DNA of 22,747 nt. Origin: a virus. The DNA is taken from IMG/VR virus record IMGVR_UViG_3300037507_002285, positions 1 to 22,747 of that record. The stretch is one strand, 5' to 3'. Positions 1,270 through 22,714 of this stretch are shown here, one piece after another; positions within the stretch are counted from its first letter, which is position 1, and each line of letters starts with the position of its first letter. Under the pieces are notes generated by a model. The model searched no databases. It was not told the origin of the DNA and was given only the letters and a program-made list of their open reading frames with translations. Made by a program: the position numbers and the translations under genes.

Positions 1270-1275
1270 TTGTTG

Positions 1276-2042: not shown

Positions 2043-2083
2043 GTACTTGAACCTCCAAAAAACAAGTTTGACAATAAAAACTG

Positions 2084-2154: not shown

Positions 2155-2158
2155 ATTG

Positions 2159-2233
2159 TATTCTTGGAAGGACTCGAACCCTCAACCTTCTCGTTCGTAG
2201 CGAGACACTCTAATCCAGTTGAGCTACAAGAAC
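2159..2233 (-). tRNA. tRNA-Arg (ACG)
   Basis: The acceptor starts GTTCTTG, the anticodon arm is TCTCG-CTACGAA-CGAGA and the T arm GAGGG/CCTTC. A34 would need host TadA to become inosine. The anticodon stem equals that of the Gln gene at 2319. Confidence 0.92.
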
Positions 2234-2238
2234 ATTTG

Positions 2239-2311
2239 GGTGGCTAACGGGAATCGAACCCGTATCTACTCGGTCACAACGAGTGGTGTTTACCGTTACA
2301 CCATAGTCACC
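2239..2311 (-). tRNA. tRNA-His (GTG)
   Basis: The anticodon arm is ACTCG-TTGTGAC-CGAGT. The extra G-1 facing C73, specific to His, is encoded. The acceptor GTGACTA/TAGCCAC has an A-C mismatch at its fourth pair. Confidence 0.92.
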
Positions 2312-2318
2312 ATATAAG

Positions 2319-2391
2319 TTGTGGAGACAGGGCTCGAACCTGTACTTTTCTCGTTCAAAGCGAGATGCCTTACCAATTTGGCCACTCCACA
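2319..2391 (-). tRNA. tRNA-Gln (TTG)
   Basis: Acceptor TGTGGAG/CTCCACA, anticodon arm TCTCG-CTTTGAA-CGAGA and T arm ACAGG/CCTGT. The discriminator is A. Confidence 0.93.
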
Positions 2392-2396
2392 GTATT

Positions 2397-2414
2397 GCCC
2401 GACTTTCATCGGGC
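2397..2414 (-). terminator. Hairpin between pseT and tRNA-Gln
   Basis: A perfect 6-bp stem GCCCGA/TCGGGC with a 6-base loop lies 5 bases after the pseT stop codon. No U tract follows, so it is more likely an mRNA end-protecting or processing hairpin than a strong intrinsic terminator. Confidence 0.4.
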
Positions 2415-2419
2415 GTATT

Positions 2420-3271
2420 TCAGAAATCTCCCCAATCTACCTGCAAACACGTCAGTCCTAAATCGTTTCGCCACATATCTACAACTTGGTCTCGGTCATC
2501 CAACACGAAGTCGATGTAAAACTTGTTACGAACATGAGTATCGAACAATTCACGTTTGACGATAGAATCTTTACGCATATCGCCTTCTGGTCTCATGAAC
2601 AAATGAAAGTGTGTCAAACGAACATTATCCTTCAACCATACCAACGTTTCTTCTCGGCAAACAGAATCACGTCCTGACATAAAGATGATGTTATGTGTAG
2701 TGGCAAACCTACGAACGATGTCAATAATTGGTGGATTTGGTTTGTCTTCACCAACTCTATCCCAATCAAAGGCACCACGCCCATCCATCTTTGCAACAGT
2801 ACCGTCGATGTCAACAATGATTGCTTGTACCAAAGACGTCTCTTGAATCATTGGAGTTACCTTTGGACGAATCCAATCGTTGAACATCTTACGAATAACA
2901 CGTTCACCTACCGACCGAGTTCGTTTCAGGTCTCGTTCGATTGCAACATCAACGTCAATGTGAAACCACTTGACTTCAACACTTGCTCCAAATTCCTTCC
3001 CAATCTCTCGAATACGGTCTTCGTGTTTTGGGTTCAAGTTTGTATCATCAACGATAATACTGAATCCTTCACCCAACCATTGACGAATGAGAGTATCACG
3101 GGTTTTCAGAATTTGACGTTCCATCTTACCAGACCAATCGCCACCTTGAACCATAGAACGCAAATCATCTTTGTTTACCCTCTTCCAATTCCGATTCAGT
3201 GCAACGAAGTCAGAGGCCCACGTTGACTTACCAGAAGCTGGAAGTCCTTTACACATTATGATTTTAGGCAT
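2420..3271 (-). CDS. pseT: T4-type polynucleotide 5'-kinase / 3'-phosphatase
   Basis: 283 aa, near the length of T4 Pnkp (301). The kinase P-loop GLPASGKST is at residues 9-17, with K15 and S16 at the T4 positions, and D35 and R38 (NKDDLR) match the T4 acceptor-site residues. The C-terminal phosphatase has the DxDGT motif (D154, D156), SGR (199-201) and DDRD (258-261), a HAD-family active site. The enzyme repairs broken RNA ends to 5'-phosphate/3'-OH so that RNA ligase can seal them. The start has AGGA 8 bases upstream and overlaps the end of the ligase gene by 8 bases, so the two are probably translationally coupled. Confidence 0.96.
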   Translation of the reverse strand: MPKIIMCKGLPASGKSTWASDFVALNRNWKRVNKDDLRSMVQGGDWSGKMERQILKTRDTLIRQWLGEGFSIIVDDTNLNPKHEDRIREIGKEFGASVEVKWFHIDVDVAIERDLKRTRSVGERVIRKMFNDWIRPKVTPMIQETSLVQAIIVDIDGTVAKMDGRGAFDWDRVGEDKPNPPIIDIVRRFATTHNIIFMSGRDSVCREETLVWLKDNVRLTHFHLFMRPEGDMRKDSIVKRELFDTHVRNKFYIDFVLDDRDQVVDMWRNDLGLTCLQVDWGDF

Positions 3272-4370
3272 CGTCTCTATCCTTTTGATAAAATGGTTTT
3301 TGATATTGTGGACGAACCATGTCCCATATCATCTTTGAATAATCTTTACCATCCAACACTGAAAACAATATAGACGATAGGTTCTTGTGGTTTTCCAGCA
3401 AGTACAACGCGATTTCTTTTCGTGTTGAATCTTTCATGTTGTACACGATGTGATTGTGAACACCACCAACAACACTCAAGATTTCGTCATACTTTTCTTG
3501 GAGACCCGAAATAATCTTGCTCACCCAATCGTAGAATTCGTCTGGAACGTTCTGTAAGATTTCTTCGAGTTCATCTCCATTTTTCAGGGCTTCCCAAATA
3601 GAAACATTCGAGACGTTCGTCAGAATACGATGTAAACGCACATACTCATCAAGCTTTACCTTCATCGTGAATCCAGATGGATAGAATCGAACAACGTATC
3701 CTTCAAAGTTATTCTTATCATGTGACAAAAGTTCTTTAATATCAGATACATCGAAATACTCCACTGCTCTCATTGAAGTTTCCTTTGATATTATTGAATC
3801 TTGTGATTGAATAATACCACCAGTTATATTTTCAACACCACCCAAGAAAATTAAACCTTCAAAATCACCATAGTCCACGACGATTCGATTATTTTTGTAA
3901 ATAATCTCAAACAAGTATGTACATTGCCAGTTTTGAAATCGAATTAATACGTCCAATGGAGTTTGACCAAACTTATTTGTATTTTCACGTAACCAATTCG
4001 TTGCCCAAATTGCCTGATCGGAAGTGAATGAACCACGAGTAGCAATATAGACTTCATCATCTTCGCCAAGATATGCAATACCCAACGAACCGTCTACCTT
4101 TTCCGATACTGTAAACTCTTCGTGCCACGGAATTTCCTTGTTGCTGTGTTCTTGAATGTTAAAGAACTTCTTGAAAGGACGAGAAATAATCTCACCATTA
4201 CTATTCAAAATAAGTCCACGAGCTTGAATTGTTGCTTCATTCCACATCTTTTCAAACTGAGTGGTTTGGGTGTAGTTGTAGATATAGTAGTCAAAGGTGG
4301 GGTGTTTCTGTACGGAAACATAACCTTTTTCAACCATTTCTATCAGCAAATCATAGTGTTCGTATTTCAT
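3264..4370 (-). CDS. rnlA: T4 Rnl1-type RNA ligase
   Basis: 368 aa (T4 Rnl1 has 374). Nucleotidyltransferase motifs are in order: motif I SEKVDGSLG with the adenylated lysine K91, R51 and K68 before it as in Rnl1, motif III-type FEIIYKNNRIVVDY with E155, motif IV FEGYVV with E223, and motif V MKVKL (K237, K239). The all-helical C-terminus expected of the Rnl1 family follows. It joins RNA 3'-OH and 5'-phosphate ends, classically tRNA anticodon loops cut by host nucleases such as PrrC. AAGG is 8 bases before the ATG, and pseT follows with an 8-base overlap. Its place inside the tRNA array suits tRNA repair. Confidence 0.96.
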   Translation of the reverse strand: MKYEHYDLLIEMVEKGYVSVQKHPTFDYYIYNYTQTTQFEKMWNEATIQARGLILNSNGEIISRPFKKFFNIQEHSNKEIPWHEEFTVSEKVDGSLGIAYLGEDDEVYIATRGSFTSDQAIWATNWLRENTNKFGQTPLDVLIRFQNWQCTYLFEIIYKNNRIVVDYGDFEGLIFLGGVENITGGIIQSQDSIISKETSMRAVEYFDVSDIKELLSHDKNNFEGYVVRFYPSGFTMKVKLDEYVRLHRILTNVSNVSIWEALKNGDELEEILQNVPDEFYDWVSKIISGLQEKYDEILSVVGGVHNHIVYNMKDSTRKEIALYLLENHKNLSSILFSVLDGKDYSKMIWDMVRPQYQKPFYQKDRDDA

Positions 4371-4380
4371 TTTGAAAACC

Positions 4381-4767
4381 TTAGAAAAGAAGTGATGAAG
4401 TTGCTAACAGAGTCAAGGCATGGATGAATTGGTCAAGACCCATGACCGCGAATGTGGCGTATTCTTGTTTGTTAGACCACAATCGTTTGACCTCACGTGA
4501 TGTCAAAAAGTCGGTAATGAAGTGAAGAACAAAATTCACACCACCATAGATGAGAATACTTTGAATTTCAAATCGGTTGGCAAAGTTTGTGAAGTTACCA
4601 ATCATCAACATACCAATCAAAACGAGTGTGTATGTTCCAACGTGGTAAAACAACTGAATTGAATCTTCGTGTTTGTTGTTTCCTTGTTTACGCGTCTGAC
4701 AAAGGTAATCTCCAATGTAGTGTGTAAACAAAATGAATACAACGAATGTTAGTGTAACCATATCCAT
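4381..4767 (-). CDS. DUF3307-like membrane protein
   Basis: About 128 aa. I prefer the ATG at 4767 (GGAAAG seven bases upstream) to the ATG at 4782 or longer forms that read through the antisense of tRNA-Pro. Three or four membrane segments are visible: near the N-terminus (LTFVVFILFTHYIG), YTLVLIGMLMIG, ILIYGGVNFVLHFI and a C-terminal stretch. The pattern HYIGDYLCQ...YHVGTY...NFVLHFITDFL...LDQFIHAL, with repeated His/Asp at membrane ends, matches DUF3307, a family found in bacteria and phages with no firm function. It ends 10 bases before the RNA ligase start. Confidence 0.72.
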   Translation of the reverse strand: MDMVTLTFVVFILFTHYIGDYLCQTRKQGNNKHEDSIQLFYHVGTYTLVLIGMLMIGNFTNFANRFEIQSILIYGGVNFVLHFITDFLTSREVKRLWSNKQEYATFAVMGLDQFIHALTLLATSSLLF

Positions 4768-4801
4768 AATCCATCTTTCCATTTGTAAAACTGTTGTAAA
4801 G

Positions 4802-4875
4802 TCAGGGTGACAGGACTCGAACCTGCATATTCTTCGTTCCAAACGAAGCCCGTAACCAATTCCGGACACACCCTG
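4802..4875 (-). tRNA. tRNA-Pro (TGG), copy 2
   Basis: Acceptor CAGGGTG/CACCCTG with the Pro-typical C1-G72 and A73, anticodon arm CTTCG-TTTGGAA-CGAAG and T arm GCAGG/CCTGT. The loop has A37, while bacterial tRNA-Pro normally carries G37 (m1G, which protects the reading frame). It has the same anticodon as the gene at 832 but a quite different body. Confidence 0.88.
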
Positions 4876-4886
4876 ATAATTCAAAT

Positions 4887-5213
4887 TTATGAGGCAATTC
4901 CTTCATCCCACGAGTATGTATTCGGACCATCTTCGCCATTACAAAAGTCTGAAACAAATTGTAGATACTCGTCTGATGGGTTTCCAGTTACCACTCTGTA
5001 TTCCAAACAGCCGTTATCCCATTTAGCAAGTTTAACTATAACAGGGGTGTTTTTCAACACTCTACATACTTGGTCTATTGCCCAAGCTTTGTGGTGTTCT
5101 CCATCTTCTTGTCCATAAGCCGCAAAATAAAGTGCCCAATCGGTTGTACCATAATTCGCAAATTTAGTATTGGAAAGGTCTTCGACCAAAGTTTCGCCCA
5201 AATACCCAGTCAT
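4887..5213 (-). CDS. Hypothetical protein, 108 aa
   Basis: I do not recognise this small soluble acidic protein. It has a YFAAYGQEDGEHHKAWAIDQVCR stretch in its middle whose His/Asp-rich YGQxDGxHHKxW core looks conserved, and a C-terminal CNGEDGPNTYSWDEG segment. AGGGTG precedes the ATG at a suitable distance. It lies alone between the tRNA-Thr at 5248 and tRNA-Pro at 4802, so it is probably co-transcribed with the tRNAs. Confidence 0.7.
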   Translation of the reverse strand: MTGYLGETLVEDLSNTKFANYGTTDWALYFAAYGQEDGEHHKAWAIDQVCRVLKNTPVIVKLAKWDNGCLEYRVVTGNPSDEYLQFVSDFCNGEDGPNTYSWDEGIAS

Positions 5214-5247
5214 ATATCACCCTGTGTTTAGTGTTTATTTACATTTG

Positions 5248-5318
5248 CTTGGTATGTGGGAATCGAACCCACTACTTCCGAGTTACCACTCGGACGCTTA
5301 TCCAACTGCTCATACCAA
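5248..5318 (-). tRNA. Atypical tRNA, probably Thr (GGT), with 8-base anticodon loop
   Basis: The acceptor is TTGGTAT/ATACCAA, the T arm GTGGG-TTCGATT-CCCAC, and there is a short D stem with TTGG in its loop. The anticodon stem TCCGA/TCGGA encloses eight bases, GTGGTAAC, not seven. If T33 is the usual U-turn base, the anticodon is GGT (Thr). The outer loop bases G and C could pair, leaving a 6-base loop. The variable region is four bases. The amino acid is less certain than the tRNA call. Confidence 0.78.
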
Positions 5319-5335
5319 AACACCGATAACAATTT

Positions 5336-5404
5336 GCCAGAACTGATAACGATGTGAACACAACAGAGATAAGAAGTTACTGGCATAACAGATTATACTC
5401 TGGC
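5336..5404 (-). ncRNA. Candidate structured RNA or decayed tRNA
   Basis: The 95-base gap between tRNA-Thr and tRNA-Asn contains GCCAGAG...TTCTGGC, which pairs over 7 bp (one G-U) like an acceptor stem 69 nt apart. Inside is a GTTA/TAAC hairpin and a GTGTTCACA segment that might be a remnant T arm. No clear anticodon arm is seen. Confidence 0.3.
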
Positions 5405-5413
5405 CGTGTTTTG

Positions 5414-5485
5414 CTCACACGGTAGGACTCGAACCTACAACCAATCGGTTAACAGCCGAACGCTCCACCATTGAGCTACGTGTGA
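5414..5485 (-). tRNA. tRNA-Asn (GTT)
   Basis: Acceptor TCACACG/CGTGTGA, D arm GCTC/GAGC, loop CTGTTAA and T arm GTAGG/CCTAC. The discriminator is G, as usual for Asn. The outer anticodon-stem pair is U-U. Confidence 0.92.
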
Positions 5486-5492
5486 ATGATTG

Positions 5493-5565
5493 TTGCGGAG
5501 GTGAGATTCGAACTCACGATCTTCGGGTTATGAGCCCGACGGGTTAGCCACTTCCCTACCCCGCG
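5493..5565 (-). tRNA. Initiator tRNA-fMet (CAT)
   Basis: All initiator hallmarks are present: a C1-A72 mismatch at the acceptor end (CGCGGGG/CTCCGCA), three G-C pairs in the anticodon stem (TCGGG-CTCATAA-CCCGA) and A73. The stretch from the anticodon arm to the T stem is nearly the same as in Escherichia coli tRNA-fMet. Confidence 0.94.
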
Positions 5566-5572
5566 ATGTTTG

Positions 5573-5644
5573 TGCCGAAACGTGGAATCGAACCACGGCT
5601 ACCAGTGCTTCAAACTGGCGCTCTACCAACTGAGCTATCTCGGC
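5573..5644 (-). tRNA. tRNA-Phe (GAA)
   Basis: The acceptor is GCCGAGA/TTTCGGC with one G-U pair, the anticodon arm CCAGT-TTGAAGC-ACTGG and the T arm CGTGG/CCACG. The discriminator is A. Confidence 0.94.
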
Positions 5645-5648
5645 ATTA

Positions 5649-5723
5649 TGGTGGACCAGGAGGGAATCGAACCCTCAATTCAGGTTTGCAAAACCCGTGT
5701 GTTCCCGTTAGCACTACCAGCCC
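5649..5723 (-). tRNA. tRNA-Ala (TGC), CCA encoded
   Basis: The anticodon arm is CGGGT-TTTGCAA-ACCTG and the T arm GAGGG/CCCTC. The acceptor GGGCTGG/CTGGTCC contains the G3-U70 pair that defines alanine identity, plus two other wobble pairs. A73 and a templated CCA (5649-5651) follow. Confidence 0.94.
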
Positions 5724-5732
5724 ATAATTTTG

Positions 5733-5816
5733 TGCCGCGTGTAGGATTCGCACCTACTCATCTGAATAGAATCGGTTTTACAGACCGATGTGCCTCTCTA
5801 ACTGCACCGACGCGGC
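5733..5816 (-). tRNA. tRNA-Tyr (GTA)
   Basis: Class II tRNA with a long variable arm. Acceptor GCCGCGT/ACGCGGC, anticodon arm TCGGT-CTGTAAA-ACCGA and T arm GTAGG/CCTAC. It is the first gene of the tRNA array in the direction of transcription. Confidence 0.94.
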
Positions 5817-6565: not shown

Positions 6566-6593
6566 TTTATTAACTTGTAATTGATTGAATACA

Positions 6594-6622
6594 AGTATAC
6601 GAAAAAAATCTGACATTTCCAA
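6594..6622 (-). promoter_or_regulatory. Class A promoter (TTGGAA-N17-TATACT)
   Basis: TTGGAA (6617-6622) and TATACT (6594-6599) are 17 bases apart within the ATTTGGAAATGTC...TTTCGTATA block. It lies immediately after the terminator of the previous unit. Confidence 0.75.
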
Positions 6623-6625
6623 ATA

Positions 6626-6660
6626 AAAAAGTCTCACACCAAGAAAATGTGAGACTTTTT
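6626..6660 (-). terminator. Intrinsic terminator
   Basis: A 13-bp stem (AAAAAGTCTCACA paired with TGTGAGACTTTTT) with a U run lies 20 bases after the stop of the gene at 6680. The A/T flanks could let it work on both strands. The bases just before it, ACACACCAGTTCA, also occur just before the terminator at 5971-6005. Confidence 0.85.
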
Positions 6661-6679: not shown

Positions 6680-7027
6680 TTAAAGTGCCGAATAAATAGC
6701 GGCGTATTCTTTCACATTGAATCTTTGTTTTGCCTTGGCTAACATCTCTGTCATCAATTCATTTTCATACTGTTGAATACCATAAGGCATAGTTCCAGCA
6801 ATCTTTCTGATTTCAGCAGTGTGGTCAAGTATCTTTGAATACTTTTGTTCTGCTAGAAGTTTAGCGAGTTCAAATAAAGCCTCTGAACGATTTGCCTTCT
6901 TTGTGGCTTCTCTCATTCTCTTTACAGAGTTTTCAACTTTTTGGCTAATCTTTTCTTCAGCTTCACGAAGTGATTGAAGTGTTTGAGATGCCTCGCTAAG
7001 TAATTGTTTTCTTGACGATAATTTCAT
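6680..7027 (-). CDS. Candidate internal head protein (MKLSSRKQLL family), 115 aa
   Basis: The start at 7027 has GGAG six bases upstream. The N-terminus MKLSSRKQLLSEASQTLQSL matches those of the genes at 16702, 17482 and 16228. A possible prohead-protease site LRE|A is at residues 20-23, the same place as (I/L)NE|A in the relatives. The rest is helical and Lys/Glu/Ala-rich with no known domain. By analogy with T4 IPI-IPIII, the N-terminus would target the prohead core, be cut off during maturation, and the rest would be injected. This is inference. It ends before a strong terminator. Confidence 0.7.
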   Translation of the reverse strand: MKLSSRKQLLSEASQTLQSLREAEEKISQKVENSVKRMREATKKANRSEALFELAKLLAEQKYSKILDHTAEIRKIAGTMPYGIQQYENELMTEMLAKAKQRFNVKEYAAIYSAL

Positions 7028-7044: not shown

Positions 7045-7428
7045 TTAGTCCCACCAAATTCGGTATAGACCTGGTTCTACTTCATCAAGTTCATCCGCCT
7101 TCAAAGAAGCTTTACTTGGTTTTGTATTCGTCTTTACATAAAGACAAACACTATATTCACGACCAAGTTGAATCTTTGCATCTGCTGGTAATTTGTCAAT
7201 CAATTCAGCAGTGAATTCATTATAACCATCAGGAAGAGCTTGTTTCATAATGTTCATTGCATCTTTCTTACTGAACATTGTTGTGTCTTTCCACATCATG
7301 TTATTTCCATCATATTCCTTGGCAAACTTCTTTGGATCTTTACCAAAATTTACTTCCTTTACTGCCTCATTGATAGATTCAGTCAAAAGACCAGCAAGTT
7401 TCATCATTCGTTGTTTATTCAGTTCCAT
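7045..7428 (-). CDS. Candidate internal head protein, 127 aa
   Basis: I chose the second of two adjacent ATGs (7428): GGAA is six bases upstream, whereas it would be only three from the first. The N-terminus MELNKQRMMKLAGLLTESIN is followed by EA, giving INE|A at residues 19-22. This matches the (I/L)XE|A protease consensus seen in neighbouring genes. The mature part has a FGKDPKKFAKEYDGNNMMWKD segment and a C-terminus ending in GLYRIWWD, with no family I recognise. An ATATTTAT box lies 34 bases upstream. The next gene starts 18 bases after the stop. Confidence 0.7.
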   Translation of the reverse strand: MELNKQRMMKLAGLLTESINEAVKEVNFGKDPKKFAKEYDGNNMMWKDTTMFSKKDAMNIMKQALPDGYNEFTAELIDKLPADAKIQLGREYSVCLYVKTNTKPSKASLKADELDEVEPGLYRIWWD

Positions 7429-7459
7429 CATATATTCCAAAAAATACTATGGTTATATT

Positions 7460-7687
7460 CTATAAATATGATTCAGGTTTTGTTTTCTTACGGGAAAGTA
7501 AGAAATAAAATCCAAAAAATAACAGCGCAACCCCATAGAAGATAACGTCTGTAATGAAGTAACTTCCTGTAAGTTTTGTAGTGAAAGCAAAGGCCGCATC
7601 GAATCCAAGAGGATTGAAGAATGTTCCTAAAACCAAACAAGTTTTTGCGAGGTTGTCTCGTAGTTTTTGTCTTTTTACTATTGCCAT
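7460..7687 (-). CDS. Small membrane protein, 75 aa
   Basis: Two hydrophobic stretches are seen, LVLGTFFNPLGFDAAFAF (about residues 18-35) and ITDVIFYGVALLFFGFYFLL (about 45-64), with a basic N-terminus and a basic C-terminal tail RKKTKPESYL. GGAAG is five bases before the ATG. The overlapping frame starting at 7700 lacks such a pattern. Function unknown; possibly an inner-membrane protein made late, since an ATATTTAT box lies upstream at 7739. Confidence 0.65.
   Translation of the reverse strand: MAIVKRQKLRDNLAKTCLVLGTFFNPLGFDAAFAFTTKLTGSYFITDVIFYGVALLFFGFYFLLSRKKTKPESYL
7462..7469 (-). promoter_or_regulatory. Class B box ATATTTAT
   Basis: CATATTTATAGAATATAACC on the minus strand, 34 bases before the start at 7428, followed by AGTATTTTTTGGA as in the other head-protein leaders. 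Confidence 0.55.
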
Positions 7688-11615: not shown

Positions 11616-11969
11616 TTAGATTATGCTACCATACTTCTTATATGCTCGAAGTACCATATCTTCCACTGACTTTTGATTTGCAAAAACCTTAGTGAAATAA
11701 TTTTTATTCATGGAGAGTTTCTGTACTTCAGCATCCATAGCGTCAACAAAATCGCCAGTTAACTTGTTGGAAATTGATCTAGGTAAATTACCATAAGTAT
11801 TGTGAAAATCACTTGGCATTTTTGTTTTCCATTTATTCCAAGCTATGTCAGCAATCTGCTTTATAATCTTCATGTCTTCACCAGTTGGTGTGGCTTCATT
11901 GATGTTCTCACCAACATTCTTCTTGAATGCTTCTTGTATCTTTCTGCCTTCTTGTATTAGGTCTTTCAT
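11616..11969 (-). CDS. Candidate internal head protein (MKDLIQEGR family), 117 aa
   Basis: The ATG at 11969 has GGAG six bases upstream; the in-frame TTG before it overlaps the ribosome site and is rejected. The N-terminus MKDLIQEGRKIQEAFKKNVG is nearly the same as that of the gene at 18037, and ENINEATP gives an INE|A cut site at residues 23-26. The mature part has no known domain and ends VEDMVLRAYKKYGSII. The leader (ATATTTAT, GTTTATATCATAT, poly-T, GGAGTC) matches those of the 16228, 17482 and 18037 genes. Prohead targeting and injection are inferred. Confidence 0.72.
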   Translation of the reverse strand: MKDLIQEGRKIQEAFKKNVGENINEATPTGEDMKIIKQIADIAWNKWKTKMPSDFHNTYGNLPRSISNKLTGDFVDAMDAEVQKLSMNKNYFTKVFANQKSVEDMVLRAYKKYGSII

Positions 11970-12008: not shown

Positions 12009-12016
12009 ATAAATAT
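12009..12016 (-). promoter_or_regulatory. Class B box ATATTTAT
   Basis: TATATTTATATCATATAAAC on the minus strand, 40 bases before the start at 11969, followed by poly-T and GGAG. Confidence 0.55.
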
Positions 12017-13378: not shown

Positions 13379-13416
13379 TTGTTATCGTTCGTATATGTTG
13401 GTTTAGTTATGACTAC

Positions 13417-13445
13417 AATATACGAAAGTGAATTGAATTTACCAA
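13417..13445 (-). promoter_or_regulatory. Class A promoter (TTGGTA-N17-TATATT)
   Basis: TTGGTA (13440-13445) and TATATT (13417-13422), 17 bases apart, ahead of the helicase gene. It gives the helicase its own promoter despite the endonuclease gene inserted upstream. Confidence 0.75.
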
Positions 13446-13446
13446 A

Positions 13447-14208
13447 TCAAAGTTCGTGTTCCCATTTGAAAAAATTTCCACGAATACCTTTTTTGTATTC
13501 CCGACCTGAAAGATGTGCCGATATACATGATGGGAAAGTGTCTAACGTCTCTGTCCATTCACGAATTGATTTACGTTGGCCAACATACTGTCCCGAAACA
13601 CAAATAACATATCCTTTGAATCTTGAATTTTTTTCTCCCGTATGTAATTCACGCAATTTTTGTCTTCCCTCATCAGAGAATTGAATTTGACGTTTCACAC
13701 CAATTCTTTTTGACGCGCGTTCTTCTGAATGTTTCACACCACGAAGGGACTCTGCTATTTTTTTACGAGTTTCCGGATTGTGTTTCTTCCCATAGAAGTG
13801 ATGTTTTTCACCAAGTTGAGCAACCTTCATCTTTTGTATGCTTTCTTCGGAGTGTTTCTTTCCTTTACGGGATTGAGTCAATTTTTCTTTGTGTTCTGGA
13901 CTAAGCTTCTTTCCAAAATTATAGTGGTTTACACCCCTTGCTGAAAACCCTACACTTCTATTGTGCATATTGTAGAAATTGGGATTATTACCTGCATCAT
14001 AATAATTCAACCAATACTCTTCCCTCTCCATAAGTTGTTCAAAAGAAGAACACTCTTCAAGTATTTCTTTCTTGAAGTTTTCTTTCCCATACTTATTGAT
14101 TGCATTTTTTATACAAATACCCGAACCAAGATAATTTGGGTTGTTGCGACCATCTCTACCAATGTATTGTTTACCATTCACCAAATTGGTGGTCTTATAG
14201 ATGACCAT
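13447..14208 (-). CDS. GIY-YIG homing endonuclease with NUMOD3 repeats
   Basis: 253 aa. The N-terminal GIY-YIG nuclease domain reads VIYKTTN (2-8) and KQYIGRDGR (13-21), with a catalytic-type glutamate in EREEYWLNYY (61-70). Repeated NUMOD3-type DNA-binding motifs follow (FGKKLSPEHKEKL, KGKKHSEESIQKM, YGKKHNPETRKKI, GVKHSEERASK). A C-terminal HTH-like SIREWTETLDTFPSCISAHL segment resembles NUMOD1. This is the Seg/I-Bmo type layout. It sits between replication genes, a usual home for free-standing homing endonucleases. AGGAG lies six bases before the ATG and abuts a long inverted repeat (14220-14333). Confidence 0.9.
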   Translation of the reverse strand: MVIYKTTNLVNGKQYIGRDGRNNPNYLGSGICIKNAINKYGKENFKKEILEECSSFEQLMEREEYWLNYYDAGNNPNFYNMHNRSVGFSARGVNHYNFGKKLSPEHKEKLTQSRKGKKHSEESIQKMKVAQLGEKHHFYGKKHNPETRKKIAESLRGVKHSEERASKRIGVKRQIQFSDEGRQKLRELHTGEKNSRFKGYVICVSGQYVGQRKSIREWTETLDTFPSCISAHLSGREYKKGIRGNFFKWEHEL

Positions 14209-14343: not shown

Positions 14344-15048
14344 TTATTTAGATACAAGACCGTTATATGATGTTTCCGGTATTGCGATGAAAACTTCTTC
14401 TGAATATTTATTTCCAAAATGTAGTATTTCATCTTCTTTTGATTCACCGAAAAGTAAATTCATTACCTTTTGGTTAAAAAGGTATTCGTCATTTTGTTTA
14501 GATATTAGAATACCCCCATTGTACCCCCAAACACCATCCTTACTTGATAATTTACTACCAAATTCGTGAGCAACTGTTTTAGATGTAGTCCAGCTCTGAA
14601 TTTCCAAATGAGGTGTGTATTGTATTGGTTTCATACATTTTACATATTGGATTGAGCCAAATTTTATTTTTTTCCAATCTTTTGGTGAAGTTTTTTTCAA
14701 TTTCAAAATTGTTTTTTCGTTTACAACTCGAATTCCGCGGTATATTGTTGTGCCATCTGGTGTTGTTGGTTTGAAAATGGAAGGAAATACTTTAGCAGCG
14801 TTTTTGAATAAATCCTCATAAGAATATAGATTATTTACAACCTTTTTATTATTAGAACCAACCCATTTCAAAAGAATTTTGAGTATTATCTCCTCATCTT
14901 TTGTATTTTGTTCAGAACCAGTTTTACCCTGCAAATTAACAATTTTGTTATAAAACTTATTATGTTTTTTATCACCAAATACAATATCACCAAACACTTT
15001 TTTGGGGTCTGTATCTAATTCCAATAATATGTCTTTCAGTTTTATCAT
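14344..15048 (-). CDS. ADP-ribosyltransferase-like protein (Alt/VIP2-type fold)
   Basis: 234 aa from the ATG at 15048; an upstream GTG at 15063 overlapping the previous stop is an alternative. The R-S-E pattern is readable: TIYRGIR (R104), QSWTTSKTVAHEF (S-T-S, 152-156) and SEEVFIAI with E218 as the likely catalytic glutamate. The residue two before E218 is Ser instead of the Glu/Gln common in arginine-modifying enzymes. Phage enzymes of this class (T4 Alt, ModA) modify host RNA polymerase and other proteins. The N-terminus MIKLKDILLE resembles the targeting-like segments nearby, so Alt-like packaging is possible but unproven. Confidence 0.8.
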   Translation of the reverse strand: MIKLKDILLELDTDPKKVFGDIVFGDKKHNKFYNKIVNLQGKTGSEQNTKDEEIILKILLKWVGSNNKKVVNNLYSYEDLFKNAAKVFPSIFKPTTPDGTTIYRGIRVVNEKTILKLKKTSPKDWKKIKFGSIQYVKCMKPIQYTPHLEIQSWTTSKTVAHEFGSKLSSKDGVWGYNGGILISKQNDEYLFNQKVMNLLFGESKEDEILHFGNKYSEEVFIAIPETSYNGLVSK

Positions 15049-15059
15049 ACATATAAATA

Positions 15060-16109
15060 TCACTCCCGAATCTTTTGTCTAAATCCATCCAGTGAATTGA
15101 AGTTATTGACGAGCCACTCATCCCAATTCGTTATTACACCACGAAGTTTATCTTGAAGACACATTGTTTCAAGTTGAATCTTATTTAGACCACCAATCTC
15201 TCCATCAACCATATGGCGTATGTTTGACTTTGTTGAAGATGGAATATCAACGTCTAACAATTGCATCAACTTATAATTTCTTTCTAGGTTAGGAATGTTT
15301 TGTTTTAGTTCTGTCATAACTTTGGCTTTACCATCATACAATTTACAACTTTCTATGAACTCTTCCAAAGGAATTCTTCTTGGTTCTGCTAATTGTGGAA
15401 AGTGTTTTTGAATTGTCTTGTCTCCCATACCACGGATTCCTGGAATGGAATCGGAGTTATCACCAAGTAGAGCTTTGTAGATGGTGAAGTTTTCACACGA
15501 TACTCCGTAATCCTCAAGTAAGTTATCTGGCTTATACATTTTTTTCTTTGTGGGAACATAAACATTTACATTCTCTGAAACCAATTGGAGAAAATCTCGG
15601 TCATTGGATAGGATGTAAACCTTTTCCTTGAAGTAGGATGCCAAATAAGCGATAACATCATCAGCTTCAATATGGTCAACCACGATTGTTGTGAGTGGAA
15701 GATTTTGGAGGTATTCGTAAAGACGAACCATCTGCCATTTCATGGATGCCTGTTCGTCAGCTAAATCTTCAAATCCAACTGCACGATTGAGACGGGACTT
15801 GATTGCCCGACGTTCCTTGTAGTTATCAAAGATTTTACGTCTACGATGTGAACCACCCTTACCATCAAAGACAACTACAACTCTCGTAGGTTTTACCATA
15901 CGAATTGTGGCACCAAGTGATTTCATAAACCCTGAAAGTCCGCCAACGTGTTGACCATCTTCGTTGAGTGTTGGAATTGCGGAGAATACACGGATGAAAA
16001 GATTGGTTCCATCTACTACGAGAACCCTACTATCTCGGTGGAGATTATCTGCGTTTTTATGTTCTTCTTCTACTTCTTTGAGTAGGTCTTTGTATTTCCG
16101 AATCATCAT
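15060..16109 (-). CDS. FEN/PIN-type 5'-3' exonuclease (T4 RNase H / Pol I exonuclease type)
   Basis: 349 aa. Metal-binding motifs are in order: VVDGTN (D33), FDGKGG (D82), EADDV (E148, D150, D151), SNDRDF (D170, D172), GDNSDSIPG (D217, D220) and the H3TH motif GIRGMGDKT. It would remove RNA primers and process flaps on the lagging strand, as T4 Rnh does. The core is preceded by about 27 extra residues, MMIRKYKDLLKEVEEEHKNA onward, similar in style to the head-protein N-termini. GGAA is six bases before the first ATG. A class A promoter lies about 35 bases upstream. Confidence 0.93.
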   Translation of the reverse strand: MMIRKYKDLLKEVEEEHKNADNLHRDSRVLVVDGTNLFIRVFSAIPTLNEDGQHVGGLSGFMKSLGATIRMVKPTRVVVVFDGKGGSHRRRKIFDNYKERRAIKSRLNRAVGFEDLADEQASMKWQMVRLYEYLQNLPLTTIVVDHIEADDVIAYLASYFKEKVYILSNDRDFLQLVSENVNVYVPTKKKMYKPDNLLEDYGVSCENFTIYKALLGDNSDSIPGIRGMGDKTIQKHFPQLAEPRRIPLEEFIESCKLYDGKAKVMTELKQNIPNLERNYKLMQLLDVDIPSSTKSNIRHMVDGEIGGLNKIQLETMCLQDKLRGVITNWDEWLVNNFNSLDGFRQKIRE

Positions 16110-16140
16110 AATGTATTCCGTGTGAATTTGAATGGACTAC

Positions 16141-16169
16141 AATATATGAAATTTTCGGGAGATTTCCAA
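16141..16169 (-). promoter_or_regulatory. Class A promoter (TTGGAA-N17-TATATT)
   Basis: TTGGAA (16164-16169) and TATATT (16141-16146), 17 bases apart, directly after the UUCG terminator and before the exonuclease gene. The block TTGGAAATCTCCCGAAAATT recurs at 16649-16668 and 17945-17964. Confidence 0.8.
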
Positions 16170-16172
16170 ATG

Positions 16173-16196
16173 AAAAAGGGAACCGAAGTTCCCTTT
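16173..16196 (-). terminator. UUCG-loop intrinsic terminator
   Basis: AAAGGGAAC-TTCG-GTTCCCTTTTT, 32 bases after the stop at 16228. It is the same element as at 11571, 16672 and 17968. Confidence 0.92.
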
Positions 16197-16227: not shown

Positions 16228-16578
16228 TTATCTACCAATCATTTTTAAAAGTCTTTCGGTTTCTTTCATTAGTTTACCTATGGATTTTCCTTGTCTGTTT
16301 ATTCCAAATACACCTTTAACAAATTCTGACATTTGTGAATTTGTCAATGAATTTCCACCTTCACTATCTTCCAAAGATGCTCTCATTTTCTTTATAGTTG
16401 ATGAAGAAGTGTTCAGTTCTTCAATTGAATCTTCTGTTAAATTGAGTATAACACCGATCAATTGCTTTATTCTATTTACTTCTTCTGTGGTATAGACATA
16501 GTTAGAACCCTGTTTCTTGAATTCTTTTAATACCTTTGATGCTTCGGCGAGCAATTCTTTTCTAGTTGATAATTTCAT
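16228..16578 (-). CDS. Candidate internal head protein (MKLSTRKELL family), 116 aa
   Basis: The ATG at 16578 has GGAG six bases upstream; the longer frame only runs through the leader. The N-terminus MKLSTRKELLAEASKVLKEF matches the family, with a possible LAE|A cut at residues 10-13. No later (I/L)NE site is seen, unlike in the relatives. The rest is helical and Ser/Glu/Lys-rich (ELNTSSSTIKKMRASLEDSE) with no recognised domain. It is the last of three family members in a row, each followed by its own terminator or start signals. Confidence 0.7.
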   Translation of the reverse strand: MKLSTRKELLAEASKVLKEFKKQGSNYVYTTEEVNRIKQLIGVILNLTEDSIEELNTSSSTIKKMRASLEDSEGGNSLTNSQMSEFVKGVFGINRQGKSIGKLMKETERLLKMIGR

Positions 16579-16618
16579 TTTGGACTCCAAAAAAAAAAAA
16601 TACTTTGGTTTATATGAT

Positions 16619-16626
16619 ATAAATAT
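16619..16626 (-). promoter_or_regulatory. Class B box ATATTTAT
   Basis: CATATTTATATCATATAAAC on the minus strand, 41 bases before the start at 16578, within the repeated leader cassette. Confidence 0.55.
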
Positions 16627-16639
16627 GGTACACAAAAAA

Positions 16640-16668
16640 AAAATAACAAATTTTCGGGAGATTTCCAA
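16640..16668 (-). promoter_or_regulatory. Class A promoter copy with degenerate -10 (TATTTT)
   Basis: TTGGAA (16663-16668) with TATTTT at 17-base spacing. The upstream half equals the promoter at 16141-16169, but the -10 has lost TATATT, so it may be weak or inactive. Confidence 0.45.
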
Positions 16669-16671
16669 ATG

Positions 16672-16695
16672 AAAAAGGGAACCGAAGTTCCCTTT
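16672..16695 (-). terminator. UUCG-loop intrinsic terminator
   Basis: AAAGGGAAC-TTCG-GTTCCCTTTTT, six bases after the stop at 16702. Confidence 0.92.
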
Positions 16696-16701
16696 GAAGT
16701 T

Positions 16702-17469
16702 TTACAGAAGATTGTGTCTCTTCCTTATGGACTCTTCCATTTTTTTAGCATCTTTGTTGATAGAATCTATTTCAGCATCGGATACATAGATTGCCCCAGC
16801 TATTCTATCTTTCACTATACGCTTGTAATAATCTGGACTCAATTCGCCTGCATATGAATATGGATCAATATTGAACATGGCCTTTACAAATTTTTCGTTC
16901 CCACCGTATTTGTTCATTACAGTATTTATTCTAGCTTTTATTTTTTTGTTTATCTCATATACCTGCAATTCTAGCTCCGCCTTCTTTTTATTCAATTCTT
17001 TACGAATATCTGGGGCACCTCTGCTTCCTTTTTTTACAGATGCGTGATCGGCTTCTATTTTTCGTATCTCATCATTTATCTTTTTTATGTTGATCGCATG
17101 ATTATAGAGTGGCTTGTCTTGTGAAACAGCTCGCATCATTTCATCAATTATTGGTTGTAGTTCTTTATCGAAAAATCTGTTTTGAAAATATTTCCTCAAA
17201 AAAACATCAATACCCATTCCAGCACCGGCGGCGGCAATTGCAGCGAATAAAAACAATGAAAGGCCAGGATATTCCGATGCATTCCCTGACCTACCAAGAC
17301 CAGCCATCAATACACCAATCGTTCCTGCTGCAAATGGTAATTTGTCTGCAATCTTTGACCAAATACTGTATAACAAACCTTCGTTCAGATTTTGTTTATT
17401 TTCATTACGAATCTGACGTAATACGTCGTCGGCTTCTTTCAGTAGTTGTTTTCTACTTGATAATTTCAT
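16702..17469 (-). CDS. Candidate internal head protein with glycine/alanine membrane hairpin, 255 aa
   Basis: Starts MKLSSRKQLLKEADDVLRQI, with cut-site candidate LNE|G at residues 28-31. The predicted mature N-terminus GLLYSIWSKIADKLPF is followed by two Gly/Ala-rich hydrophobic segments (about 46-59 and 68-91), then a long charged helical region (ELNKKKAELELQVYEINKKI) and a C-terminus with DAKKMEESIRKRHNLL. The layout matches the protein at 18037 (INE|GFLYNMLNKIETKL, two hydrophobic segments, DAKEMTESIR), so the two are diverged paralogs. A membrane-inserting, injected protein is an inference. GGAG precedes the ATG; the gene at 17482 ends 12 bases upstream. Confidence 0.75.
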   Translation of the reverse strand: MKLSSRKQLLKEADDVLRQIRNENKQNLNEGLLYSIWSKIADKLPFAAGTIGVLMAGLGRSGNASEYPGLSLFLFAAIAAAGAGMGIDVFLRKYFQNRFFDKELQPIIDEMMRAVSQDKPLYNHAINIKKINDEIRKIEADHASVKKGSRGAPDIRKELNKKKAELELQVYEINKKIKARINTVMNKYGGNEKFVKAMFNIDPYSYAGELSPDYYKRIVKDRIAGAIYVSDAEIDSINKDAKKMEESIRKRHNLL

Positions 17470-17481
17470 TTTGGACTCCGA

Positions 17482-17880
17482 TTACTTCATCTTTTTGATG
17501 TCAGATTCAACTGCCCTGATAATTCTTTCAATTTCAGGAAGTACCGATTCCAATTGTTTGAGTTCACGAATAGTCGCCTTTACGTTTGAAATTACAAGAC
17601 GTAATGGATAGATTGACTCATCAGCAGCTTTTGCAAACTTCTTTGCATCCTTTGGCGGCGCGCCGTGTTGTATTTCAAGATAGCGGAAGAAATTTTCAAC
17701 GTCATCATCATACTTTTCGAGCAAATCTTCATGAATTACAATTGCAATGGCATCTTCCATCCAATGTTTTACTTTTTCAACATCACGTTGTGGAACAGCA
17801 GCTTCATTTAGTGATTTTCTGATTTCTGTAAGTTTCATTTCTGATTCTTTCAGAAGTTCTTTTCTACTTGATAATTTCAT
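17482..17880 (-). CDS. Candidate internal head protein (MKLSSRKELL family), 132 aa
   Basis: The ATG at 17880 has GGAG six bases upstream. The N-terminus MKLSSRKELLKESEMKLTEI is followed by RKSLNEAAVP, giving LNE|A at residues 24-27. The mature part is helical (DVEKVKHWMEDAIAIVIHED, KQLESVLPEIERIIRAVESD) without a known domain. The gene starts with leader cassette copy 2 and the next family member (16702) follows after 12 bases, so these two share a transcript. Confidence 0.74.
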   Translation of the reverse strand: MKLSSRKELLKESEMKLTEIRKSLNEAAVPQRDVEKVKHWMEDAIAIVIHEDLLEKYDDDVENFFRYLEIQHGAPPKDAKKFAKAADESIYPLRLVISNVKATIRELKQLESVLPEIERIIRAVESDIKKMK

Positions 17881-17915
17881 TTTGGACTCCAAAAAAAATA
17901 CTTTGGTTATATGAT

Positions 17916-17923
17916 ATAAATAT
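17916..17923 (-). promoter_or_regulatory. Class B box ATATTTAT
   Basis: CATATTTATATCATATAACC on the minus strand, 36 bases before the start at 17880. Confidence 0.55.
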
Positions 17924-17935
17924 GGTACACAAAAA

Positions 17936-17964
17936 AAAATAACAAATTTTCGGGAGATTTCCAA
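17936..17964 (-). promoter_or_regulatory. Class A promoter copy with degenerate -10 (TATTTT)
   Basis: TTGGAA (17959-17964) and TATTTT (17936-17941), 17 bases apart, within leader cassette copy 2. Confidence 0.45.
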
Positions 17965-17967
17965 ATG

Positions 17968-17992
17968 AAAAAGGGAACCGAAGTTCCCCTTT
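17968..17992 (-). terminator. UUCG-loop intrinsic terminator
   Basis: AAAGGGGAAC-TTCG-GTTCCCTTTTT, the family hairpin with one extra G in the 5' arm, 45 bases after the stop at 18037. Confidence 0.9.
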
Positions 17993-18036
17993 GTTATTTA
18001 ATCACATTTGTTTTTGAATGTGTGTACTGACACCAA

Positions 18037-18759
18037 TTAGTTGCCTAGACGGATAGATTCTGTCATTTCTTTTGCGTCATTTTGTAGTGTAGTATATTCT
18101 TCTGGGTATGCTGTCATGTAAAATGTTATACGTCTTTTTACCCAATCTTTTAGTTCTTGATCGGAATAATCTTTGCTTGGAGAAGAACGTCCACTCCCCC
18201 GTATGTTGCCTTTGAATGAATCGCGGTTCGCAGCCATCTTTCTCAACAATGGTATCATAGATGGGTCGTCCAATGTTTTAGATACCGATGTTTGAATGAT
18301 GCCATCTAATTTTTTTCCAATAGTTTCTATTTCGGATTGAATTTTTGCGTATTCACTCGTATTTCGATTGGCACTACGTTGCTGAGTCAATGTCATTAAC
18401 ATTTTCAAAAGACGTTGCACCTCCGTGTTTTTCACAATCTGTGAGATACATTTGTCAAAAACTGGCTTTATATCTTTATCATAGTGTTTATTTGACAGGT
18501 ATTTTTCAAAGAACGCCATAATATCACCGAATCGCATACCCGCCGTCAAGATTCCTACCGCCACTGGAATAGACAAAGGAGTCGAAGCTCCTATTAGGGT
18601 CGAGGCTGCCAGTATTCCTAGATGTCCACCAGTTGTATCCAACTTTGTTTCGATCTTATTGAGCATATTATAAAGAAAACCTTCGTTAATTTTATCTTTT
18701 GCAACAGTTTTCTTGAATGTTTCTTGTATTCGCCTACCTTCTTGTATCAGGTCTTTCAT
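18037..18759 (-). CDS. Candidate internal head protein with membrane hairpin (paralog of 16702), 240 aa
   Basis: Starts MKDLIQEGRRIQETFKKTVA, almost the N-terminus of the protein at 11616, with INE|G at residues 24-27. The predicted mature part begins GFLYNMLNKIETKL. A hydrophobic hairpin spans about residues 46-78 (LGILAASTLIGAS, IPVAVGILTAGM), then a charged helical body with SGRSSPSKDYSDQELKDWVK and a C-terminus DAKEMTESIRLGN. So it joins an MKDL-type signal to a body shared with an MKLS-type protein. GGAG is six bases before the ATG, and an ATATTTAT box is 37 bases upstream. Confidence 0.75.
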   Translation of the reverse strand: MKDLIQEGRRIQETFKKTVAKDKINEGFLYNMLNKIETKLDTTGGHLGILAASTLIGASTPLSIPVAVGILTAGMRFGDIMAFFEKYLSNKHYDKDIKPVFDKCISQIVKNTEVQRLLKMLMTLTQQRSANRNTSEYAKIQSEIETIGKKLDGIIQTSVSKTLDDPSMIPLLRKMAANRDSFKGNIRGSGRSSPSKDYSDQELKDWVKRRITFYMTAYPEEYTTLQNDAKEMTESIRLGN

Positions 18760-18795: not shown

Positions 18796-18803
18796 ATAAA
18801 TAT
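18796..18803 (-). promoter_or_regulatory. Class B box ATATTTAT
   Basis: CATATTTATATCATATAAAC on the minus strand, 37 bases before the start at 18759, touching the hairpin at 18803-18830. Confidence 0.55.
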
Positions 18804-21576: not shown

Positions 21577-22347
21577 TTATTTTTGAAATTCTTTTAAAGA
21601 TTCCCGAACAAGTCTTTTTATTAGACTTCTGAATTGTTCTTCCGTCTTTTCTTTTGGTTTTTCTTCTGGCTTTGGTTCTTCCTTTGGTTTTTCTTCTGGC
21701 TTTGGTTCTTCCTTTGGTTTTTCTTCCGGCTTTGGAGTTTCTTTAGGTTTCTCATCTGGTTTCGGTTCTTCCTTTGGTTTTTCTTCCGGCTTTGGAGTTT
21801 CTTTAGGTTTCTCATCTGGTTTCGGTTCTTCCTTTGGTTTTTCTTCTGGCTTCTCTTCTGGAGATGGTTCTTCTTGACCAACTGAAGATTCCAATGAAGA
21901 ATTTAGATTTGAGTTCAGACCGTCACTAAAATTATCAAGACTATCTTCCATTTGGGAAAACATTTCACGTTCTTCGTCTGTTAGTTTACCGTTTATCATT
22001 CTTTCAATTTTAGAGAGAACACGGTTTACATCTCCAATTCTTTTATCAGATTCTTCTGGTTTTGTTGGTTGTGATGAGAGGAATGCGAGTGTTTTATACA
22101 ATGCCTTGATAGGACCGTTGTTGTAAAATCTTTCTGAAATACCGAGGAGTTGTTCTTTTTTATCCGAATAAGTTTCATTGGAGGCAAACCCTCTCAACAT
22201 CTTATTGATTCCCTTATTTCCTAATTTTGGAAAGGCTATTGGCAACATACCACGTTGTTTTTCAACAACCATAGCCAAATCAATAAATACCATTAGTGAT
22301 GTTGCGTTTCCAGTTGAAAGTAATGTTGCTTCGTTTATACGTTTCAT
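21577..22347 (-). CDS. Protein with Pro/Glu/Lys tandem repeats, 256 aa
   Basis: Residues 1-145 form a helical globular part (MKRINEATLLSTGNATSLMV onward, with FASNETYSDKKEQLLGISER). About residues 160-235 are a disordered repeat built from EEKPKEEPKPDEKPKETPKP-like units. A short helical C-terminus FRSLIKRLVRESLKEFQK ends the protein. The repeat probably acts as a spacer or rod, as in proline-rich stalks. An INE|A sequence occurs at residues 4-7, but so close to the start that its meaning is unclear. GAGG is six bases before the ATG. Function unknown; possibly a virion or core protein. Confidence 0.72.
   Translation of the reverse strand: MKRINEATLLSTGNATSLMVFIDLAMVVEKQRGMLPIAFPKLGNKGINKMLRGFASNETYSDKKEQLLGISERFYNNGPIKALYKTLAFLSSQPTKPEESDKRIGDVNRVLSKIERMINGKLTDEEREMFSQMEDSLDNFSDGLNSNLNSSLESSVGQEEPSPEEKPEEKPKEEPKPDEKPKETPKPEEKPKEEPKPDEKPKETPKPEEKPKEEPKPEEKPKEEPKPEEKPKEKTEEQFRSLIKRLVRESLKEFQK
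21643..21853. repeat. Tandem repeat, 30-base units in a 60-base higher-order period
   Basis: About seven 30-base units encoding KPKEEPKPEE-like decapeptides. Two 60-base blocks (about 21721-21780 and 21781-21840) are virtually identical, which points to recent expansion and likely length variation. Confidence 0.88.
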
Positions 22348-22356: not shown

Positions 22357-22674
22357 TTATGGTATCGGTGTTATCATACCCTTCGATTTATCAAGGTAGA
22401 CACTTATACTTGTTTTTTTGTTGAAGAAGTGAAGTTTATTACCATATGGTTTCTTGTATTCATACCCAAGTTTTTTTAGAGTCTGAACAATTTCCTGTTC
22501 TTTGTATTTGGAGACATCAATTGTGCTATTAGGCAACATTGAAATATCTTTTAGTTGTTTACTAATATCAGAGAACACACCCTCAAATCCTTCGGCTTCA
22601 CGAATGGAAGCGAATTCTTTTCGGATTGACTCGATAATTTCGTTTGTCTCTTTTATAAGTTGAATTTCATTCAT
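22357..22674 (-). CDS. Candidate internal head protein, 105 aa
   Basis: The N-terminus MNEIQLIKETNEIIESIRKE is followed by FASIREAEGF, giving IRE|A at residues 24-27, the same place as (I/L)NE|A in the MKLS and MKDL proteins. The C-terminal part (YEYKKPYGNKLHFFNKKTSI, then SVYLDKSKGM) looks like a small alpha/beta domain reminiscent of HicA-like double-stranded RNA-binding folds, but this is weak. An ATATTTAT box lies 33 bases before the ATG; the ribosome site is poor (AGAG). The next gene starts 9 bases after the stop. Confidence 0.62.
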   Translation of the reverse strand: MNEIQLIKETNEIIESIRKEFASIREAEGFEGVFSDISKQLKDISMLPNSTIDVSKYKEQEIVQTLKKLGYEYKKPYGNKLHFFNKKTSISVYLDKSKGMITPIP

Positions 22675-22706: not shown

Positions 22707-22714
22707 ATAAATAT
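22707..22714 (-). promoter_or_regulatory. Class B box ATATTTAT
   Basis: CTTATATTTATGTTATATGG on the minus strand, 33 bases before the start at 22674. Nothing else is recognised between 22675 and the window end. Confidence 0.5.

Follow-up and report, generated by a model that had tools for sequence, protein, structure and literature searches.

A 22,747-nucleotide (nt) stretch of viral DNA (IMG/VR virus record IMGVR_UViG_3300037507_002285, positions 1 to 22,747; record G000 of our set, hereafter the window) encodes a family of small proteins with shared N-terminal leaders, which we read, with a probability of roughly 0.8, as internal head proteins that a T4-like phage makes late in infection. 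Each protein would dock on the prohead core through its short N-terminal leader, a protease of the gp21 type would cut after an (I/L/V)xE sequence, and the freed body would stay in the head with the DNA and be delivered into the next cell, where it would most likely act against the host or its defences. The sequence basis comprises shared leaders, swapping of bodies between them, homology that ends at or near the proposed site, late promoters and a protease in relatives. Strong sequence evidence points to packaging and cutting in this clade; packaging, cleavage, injection and an effector role are proposed on the model of T4.

The carrier is a virus of water bacteria, T4-like to judge from its genes. 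The 22.7 kb fragment encodes UvsX, SSB, a DnaB-like helicase, ribonucleotide reductase and a 5'-3' exonuclease, and its relative G006 (77.6 kb, UvsX 85% identical) carries protease, major capsid protein (MCP) and portal genes, as well as sheath and tube genes matching those annotated in Microcystis phage Mel-JY01, the closest named phage by UvsX (67.5%). Among the best 80 of at least 600 matches, the window UvsX is 80–99% identical to 22 metagenomic contigs, with the next match at 65%; the list of relatives' loci is likewise the best 80 of at least 600. The genes and elements concerned are listed below, with genes named by their lower coordinate and an arrow at each proposed cut.

22357..22674, minus strand: leader protein of 105 residues, MNEIQLIKE...IRE↓A; a small late protein conserved across the clade (12 relatives and an alignment)
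22707..22714, minus strand: late promoter box ATATTTAT of 22357, 40 nt upstream
21577..22347, minus strand: probably the second gene in the late operon of 22357, 9 nt behind it; 256 residues with an MKRINE↓A start; a less certain member
18796..18803, minus strand: late promoter box of 18037
18037..18759, minus strand: leader MKDLIQEGRRIQETFKKTVAKDKINE↓G; helical body with a hydrophobic segment, homologous to the 16702 body
17973..17988, minus strand: terminator-like hairpin GGGAAC-UUCG-GUUCCC after 18037
17916..17923, minus strand: late promoter box of 17482 (and 16702)
17482..17880, minus strand: leader MKLSSRKELLKESEMKLTEIRKSLNE↓A; protein of 132 residues
16702..17469, minus strand: leader MKLSSRKQLLKEADDVLRQIRNENKQNLNE↓G; hydrophobic stretch at about residues 69–91; 12 nt behind 17482; body homologous to 18037
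16677..16692, minus strand: terminator-like hairpin after 16702
16619..16626, minus strand: late promoter box of 16228
16228..16578, minus strand: leader MKLSTRKELLAE↓A; protein of 116 residues, without a second site
16178..16193, minus strand: terminator-like hairpin after 16228
15053..15060, minus strand: late promoter box of 14344, 12 nt upstream of its start
14344..15048, minus strand: leader MIKLKDILLE↓L; possible ADP-ribosyltransferase and Alt-like candidate, from the motifs YRG, QSW and ExE only
12009..12016, minus strand: late promoter box of 11616
11616..11969, minus strand: leader MKDLIQEGRKIQEAFKKNVGENINE↓A; protein of 117 residues
11576..11591, minus strand: terminator-like hairpin after 11616
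7462..7469, minus strand: late promoter box of 7045 (and 6680)
7045..7431, minus strand: third leader type, (M)MELNKQRMMKLAGLLTE↓SINE↓A; 127–128 residues; type found on other bodies in relatives
6680..7027, minus strand: leader MKLSSRKQLLSEASQTLQSLRE↓A; 115 residues; 17 nt behind 7045; body found under other leaders in relatives

The eight open reading frames singled out by an earlier note on this DNA are all present, and all genes discussed here are on the minus strand. Four of them (6680, 16228, 16702 and 17482) share a leader of the MKLS(S/T)RK(E/Q)LL type, referred to as KLSSRK. Genes 11616 and 18037 start with MKDLIQEGR (the KDL leader), 7045 has a third type (KLAGLLTE, with an (M)MELNKQRMMKLAGLLTE start), and 22357 begins with MNEIQLIKE. 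The note had suggested looking for more genes with such N-termini; 14344 and 21577, neither of which it had listed, are likely members, the second less certainly so. Its description of the N-termini as amphipathic holds for MKDLIQEGR only, whose helical moment exceeds the 99th percentile of its own shuffles in both 11616 and 18037. The KLSSRK leaders fall at percentiles 3–71 of their own shuffles in all four genes, and the leaders of 7045 and 22357 are not unusual either.

Most of these genes had been proposed to carry an (I/L)xE followed by A or G near residues 20–30, and this pattern is borne out: [IL]xE[AG] is found at residues 18–34 in seven of the eight, compared to 0.0 of eight expected from windows of equal length in the bodies of the same genes. 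These second sites are LRE↓A at residue 22 in 6680, INE↓A at 22 in 7045 (21 counted from the second Met), INE↓A at 25 in 11616, LNE↓G at 30 in 16702, LNE↓A at 26 in 17482, INE↓G at 26 in 18037, and IRE↓A at 26 in 22357. A looser test, [IL]xE with the glutamate at residues 5–16, is positive in 13 of the 26 window genes (4.3 expected). The leader patterns are nearly limited to gene starts, with five patterns found at the start of 13, 3, 18, 2 and 10 of 1097 genes and after 0, 0, 0, 0 and 1 of 4485 internal methionines. The same body occurs under two signals in 16702 and 18037, as the note had observed (25% identity over residues 21–237 of 18037, E = 2e-11), and the sequence NEG.LY around the second site is conserved in their alignment.

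To explore the bodies behind these leaders, viral contigs were scanned with degenerate DNA patterns matching the initial 12 residues of KLSSRK or the initial 9 of KDL, which gave 53 and 50 stretches, respectively. These contained 88 distinct proteins, of which 73 were complete and at least 50 residues long (6 short and 9 truncated proteins were left out); removal of two likely chance proteins (L305 and L323) left 71. They define 26 body families, one of which is found under both leaders. The proposal that the bodies are unrelated or only partly related is supported on this larger set, in which homology stops close to or at the proposed cut. The pattern [ILV]xE[AGSND] at residues 18–34 is present in 11 of 16 KLSSRK families (0.67 expected) and in 8 of 11 KDL families (0.0 expected); controls in which the glutamate is replaced gave 0–1 families, with the lysine control considered below. 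Between KLSSRK families, identity is 49, 49 and 100% at the three positions of LNE and falls to 14, 8 and 4% right behind it.

Bodies also change leaders. Leader mixing is seen in 7 of 73 families (205 proteins, six leader types), of which we rely on five; the weaker cases are a link between L009 and L116 and a family with long low-complexity stretches. Clear swaps are MEKQRLQKLAGLISESVKKSLNE↓AKIMVKGKMVDEPEKYVIRCYKEPN against MKLSSRKELLSEAENEMKKIRGESLNE↓AKIKVKGKMVDEPEKYVIRCYKEPN, MIKLKDILKE↓DDMGATTGPSKADVHYK against MKDLVNEGRHLQDKFKDKLKE↓ELTGPSKADIHYK, and a head-cluster protein that starts with either MIKLKSILLE or LIREELRKVIEN. The 6680 body is preceded by a KLSSRK-type leader both in the window and in L006; L007 has MRDLVNEGR before it, and L013 and L022 have MKSLKLKSLL. 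The KLAGLLTE leader of 7045 precedes different bodies in relatives, and G013 contains runs of genes with MIKL-type leaders at 100–103 and 165–169 kb. Since alignments of bodies across leaders begin at about the proposed cut, the second site appears to be the working one in long leaders. The effective cut would probably be the second site in the two long leaders (22–30 residues), and the first in short leaders of the MIKLKDIL type (10 residues).

Several window genes have almost the same DNA over the promoter, ribosome site and start, and the shared 5' ends could accordingly be mere repeats of promoter-start DNA, arisen by gene duplication or conversion, with a functionless peptide. We regard this as very improbable, since KLSSRK conservation stops at the protease-like site, and the same layout recurs across leader types with the same body under different leaders. 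The 22357 family also retains its site despite diverging first residues: [ILV]xE[AG] is found at residues 27–32 in 12 of 12 relatives, 11 of which have the late promoter, and E26 is invariant in all 13 aligned sequences. Homologues of the neighbouring 21577 start with MKRKIVNE↓S, MKKVKKKINE↓S and MRESKTPLTE↓G. Window positions 21640–21860, within 21577, encode an array of proline/glutamate/lysine repeats spaced at 12 and 18 nt, and the protein differs in length from that of relative L001 (256 compared to ~226 residues).

The box ATATTTAT is found 12 times in the window, compared to 1.67 expected. Eleven copies are on the coding strand, each 12–59 nt before a gene start, and one is on the other strand. 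The relative G006 has 26 copies on the strand that carries 69 of its 71 called genes and none on the other; 21 of the 26 are within 150 nt of a start, including those of the portal, sheath and tube genes. Because of this strand bias and its position before portal, sheath and tube genes, we take the box to be the late promoter of the clade. It precedes 7 of 9 leader genes and 4 of the 19 other window genes (p = 0.010), where the nine are our own list, the eight named genes plus 14344. The two leader genes without a box of their own sit 12 and 17 nt behind a boxed leader gene, and no box was found before UvsX, SSB, the helicase or the exonuclease in the window. Of the 71 scanned leader proteins, 38 have the promoter directly and at least 24 follow another leader gene. 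Four leader units end with a UUCG hairpin, present in 4 exact copies in the window (0.02 expected) and with no further copy there at up to 2 mismatches. Leader, late promoter and, in four units, hairpin may together form a cassette for the exchange of bodies.

In a wider sample (nine records, loci L001–L022 and L121–L165), [LIVMF][LI]xE is present near the start in 81 of 585 protein clusters, compared to 29.1 expected. Substituting other residues for the glutamate gave 20 clusters for aspartate (24.6 expected), 35 for lysine (28.6), 19 for asparagine (25.1), 14 for glutamine (11.6) and 36 for serine (27.6). Late promoters are associated with these starts (p = 0.0017). Mel-JY01 and immuto, the nearest named isolates found, differ in their leader sets; they were covered over ~179 of 190 kb (Mel-JY01) and ~145 of 160 kb (immuto). 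Both contain some leader-like starts (MIKLKSLLQE, MIKLIDLLTE), and immuto shows a weak excess of the loose motif (19 against 11.0 expected, serine control 14). The main text of the Baltic flavobacterial phage paper makes no mention of immuto.

A gp21-like protease, for which the earlier note had proposed a search, gave no match in the window fragment but is present in relatives. The family (PF03420) was detected in 5 of 28 records of UvsX relatives, with E = 1.3e-33 in G006, where PHROGs also names the MCP, protease and portal. Protease and leader gene are found together on one contig in 4 of the 27 records searched among the leader-pattern matches, a count that leaves out G044, whose leader match is a chance 32-residue reading frame. 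The MCPs themselves carry such a site: an LENQA-type stretch ending in (I/L/V)xE-(A/S/T/N) at about residue 60 is present in all 26 usable sequences (27 were gathered, and L166 was blank), and 11 of the 26 start with an (I/L/M)LxE-(G/S/A) N-terminus. The gene just before the MCP has no PHROG match and is presumed to be the scaffold by position only. In 48 of 55 loci its N-terminus is a variant of DLLKE↓AIADAK (precisely M(N/T)DLL(K/R)EAIADAK in 19), and a second (L)xE↓A is found at residues 20–38 in 48 of 55; these 55 belong to the 80 listed loci (best 80 of at least 600). The pattern M.DL[LIV].[ED][AG] starts 22 of 1097 genes, all of them scaffold-position or leader genes, and follows 1 of 5127 internal methionines. 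By sequence, the MKDLIQEGR leader has its start in common with the presumed scaffold and with no other gene examined. A homologue of ribosomal protein S21 is encoded between the protease and scaffold genes of G006 (L105:10637-10870), and the annotation of Mel-JY01 places RpsU between its protease and capsid genes.

The likeness to the scaffold raises the possibility that the leader proteins are parts of the prohead core or other structural parts, which are cleaved into pieces and either remain in the head or exit it, without being delivered as effectors. Some leader proteins are indeed encoded within the head gene block, between protease and scaffold, and 22357 and 21577 stay paired across the relatives examined, as would be expected of a structural part. 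The bodies behind the two scanned leaders, however, vary, frequently lie in tandem and are exchanged from phage to phage, and the head-block leader protein of one relative contains an ADP-ribosyltransferase domain above the Pfam cut-off. We consider the structural explanation unlikely, although less so than that of repeated DNA. The leaders could also target the proteins elsewhere in the infected cell, such as the membrane or the replication complex, with incidental (I/L)xE sites. The amphipathic helical moment of MKDLIQEGR and the hydrophobic stretches in two bodies would fit this explanation, but the late promoters, the scaffold- and capsid-like N-termini and the occurrence of the sites far above chance make it highly implausible.

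Several observations weigh against the internal head protein reading. Gene 16228 has no second site at residues 18–34, only LAE↓A at residue 12; the lysine control at the second site is high in KLSSRK families (7 of 16); and homology in the KDL set fades to a few percent by about residue 23 without a sharp end. The loose motif is close to expectation in G006 (8 observed, 9.9 expected), G007 (3, 4.3), G009 (5, 4.6), G013 (34, 29.2) and G020 (15, 13.9), and Mel-JY01 has 15 compared to 9.5 expected with a serine control of 22. The motif also occurs in proteins that are not necessarily packaged, such as the 5' exonuclease 15060 (MMIRKYKDLLKE), which has no late promoter in the window. Four non-leader window genes are boxed as well, and boxes are found 94 nt before the exonuclease in G003 and 134 nt before SSB in G006. 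The internal protein (ip) genes of T4 lack TATAAATA within 80 nt of their starts, and late promoters are therefore not a defining trait. The hydrophobic segments of 16702 and 18037 are unlike T4 internal proteins, the window fragment is without a protease match as described above, and the window leaders differ from the MKTYQEF type of T4, with only the layout in common. As the leaders do not have the T4 sequence, descent is not shown, and we describe the system as working like that of T4.

The exonuclease was itself considered as a leader gene, with KDLLKE near its start; given an upstream element in common with the helicase and the lack of a late promoter box, it was left uncounted. Its Y..LL.E start (15060-16109) is kept in relatives. 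The shared element is a second common one, located before the helicase (13411-13451), the exonuclease (16135-16175) and 6266 (6588-6628), and is possibly an early or middle promoter. ARAGORN predicts 20 tRNA genes at 343-5816 of the window, including a tRNA-like gene with a four-base anticodon (ggta) at 5247-5318.

The nature of the bodies was approached with profile searches and structure prediction. No Pfam family was found above cut-off for 26 body representatives; below cut-off, nine families appear in single members, all from five proteins, with a best E-value of 1.2e-4. One KLSSRK-leader relative of 6680 (L242:2612-2974) resembles the winged-helix model of BrxC from BREX defence (E = 5e-4, below cut-off), which is a lead only; PADLOC also lists BrxC at E = 3.5e-4, without naming the member, plus two weaker matches, and none was taken as identified. 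Three leader genes at L119 13621-16701 (G013) show a weak likeness to DUF6934 (E = 0.003-0.007, below cut-off) and may represent a duplicated cargo family. A HicA-like identity of 22357 was dropped, as Pfam and PDB profile searches gave no such match. Neither 14344 nor 16702 has a match at E ≤ 0.01 in the collection of named phages. The model of 18037, built from a three-sequence alignment, is all helical with a mean predicted local distance difference test (pLDDT) score of 70.5. A helix spans residues 2–18 and the next starts at 26, leaving a break near the second site, in a region (the first 50 residues) where pLDDT is only ~50–57. A Foldseek search of this model against PDB gave a best E-value of 0.2.

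Gene 14344 is a possible ADP-ribosyltransferase-like candidate. The motifs YRG, QSW and ExE (E205, E207) are invariant in four aligned homologues, and we take them to resemble the R-S-E signature of ADP-ribosyltransferases. Nothing convincing was found for this protein in Pfam, PHROGs or PDB, and its model (pLDDT 39) is unusable; the idea thus draws on the motifs. The homologues have the starts MKLSKILE↓G and MKSNKQILKE↓V, each closely preceded by ATATTTAT. Pfam-level ADP-ribosyltransferases are present in relatives behind MIKL(K/R)DIL.E, in L160 (E = 8.5e-8) and in a G013 cluster (E = 2e-5). The L160 protein (L160:3644-4642) is encoded within the head gene block, between protease and scaffold.

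A further, tentative proposal is that the leaders serve as an address code. Of several exchangeable leaders, at least two would mimic the N-termini of distinct prohead core proteins (the scaffold, and a protein encoded between protease and scaffold). The leaders would attach cargo to different partners in the core and thereby determine its copy number or the order in which it is delivered. Cargo families by the dozen, mostly without an annotated function, might then circulate among the phages by exchange behind the leader-promoter cassette, as an injected arsenal. The variety of leaders raises the question of whether separate signals direct cargo to separate regions of the prohead core.

With no sequence shared between their bodies, injected phage proteins are difficult to detect. 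The leaders provide a simple handle: two of them select 26 body families in metagenomic T4-like phages, none of which is identified by Pfam. That these bodies would act as anti-host effectors is suggested by analogy with T4, in which each of the three internal proteins (IPI, IPII and IPIII) inhibits its own subtype of restriction enzyme (PMC12373910). Such lists may therefore be a direct route to new anti-defence proteins.

For T4, targeting of the leader to the prohead core, cleavage by gp21 and injection of the body are experimentally supported (PMC9026906, PMC3012670 and PMC12373910). The window proteins resemble T4 IPI, IPII and IPIII in having unrelated bodies behind a shared N-terminal leader that ends in (I/L)xE↓A (PMC9026906 and PMC12373910). 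IPII and IPIII both start with MKTYQEFIAE↓A, IPI has ITE↓A at residue 19, and gp22 and gp24 start with MLKEQLIAE↓A and MAKINELLRE↓S, respectively. T4 thus has one leader for IPII and IPIII and a similar one for IPI, of 10–19 residues (PMC9026906), whereas at least four leader types are found on the window fragment, two of them 22–30 residues long with two sites, and bodies trade leaders. T4 Alt, annotated in the capsid and as entering the host, starts with MELITE↓L, a layout like the MIKLKDILLE↓L of 14344, whose likeness to Alt is otherwise at the level of motifs. At least 10 ip genes found by their signal sequence have been reported in T-even phages (Repoila et al. 1994, as cited in PMC12373910); in the present clade, two leaders alone account for 26 body families, and metagenomes are the only source of these phages. 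DarB of phage P1 likewise counters restriction and is directed into the head by a signal at its N-terminus, but it belongs to another type of phage, and the accessible sections of PMC9024508 describe a single such cargo, with interchangeable leaders unmentioned. Among the matches listed in the open-access literature, neither interchangeable leader types nor this clade was the subject of a paper. The internal protein principle and the sharing of leaders among T-even ip genes are already known; the present system differs in its several leader types per phage, long leaders with two sites, the exchange of leaders, the scaffold-like N-termini of cargo proteins, and the number of cargo families.

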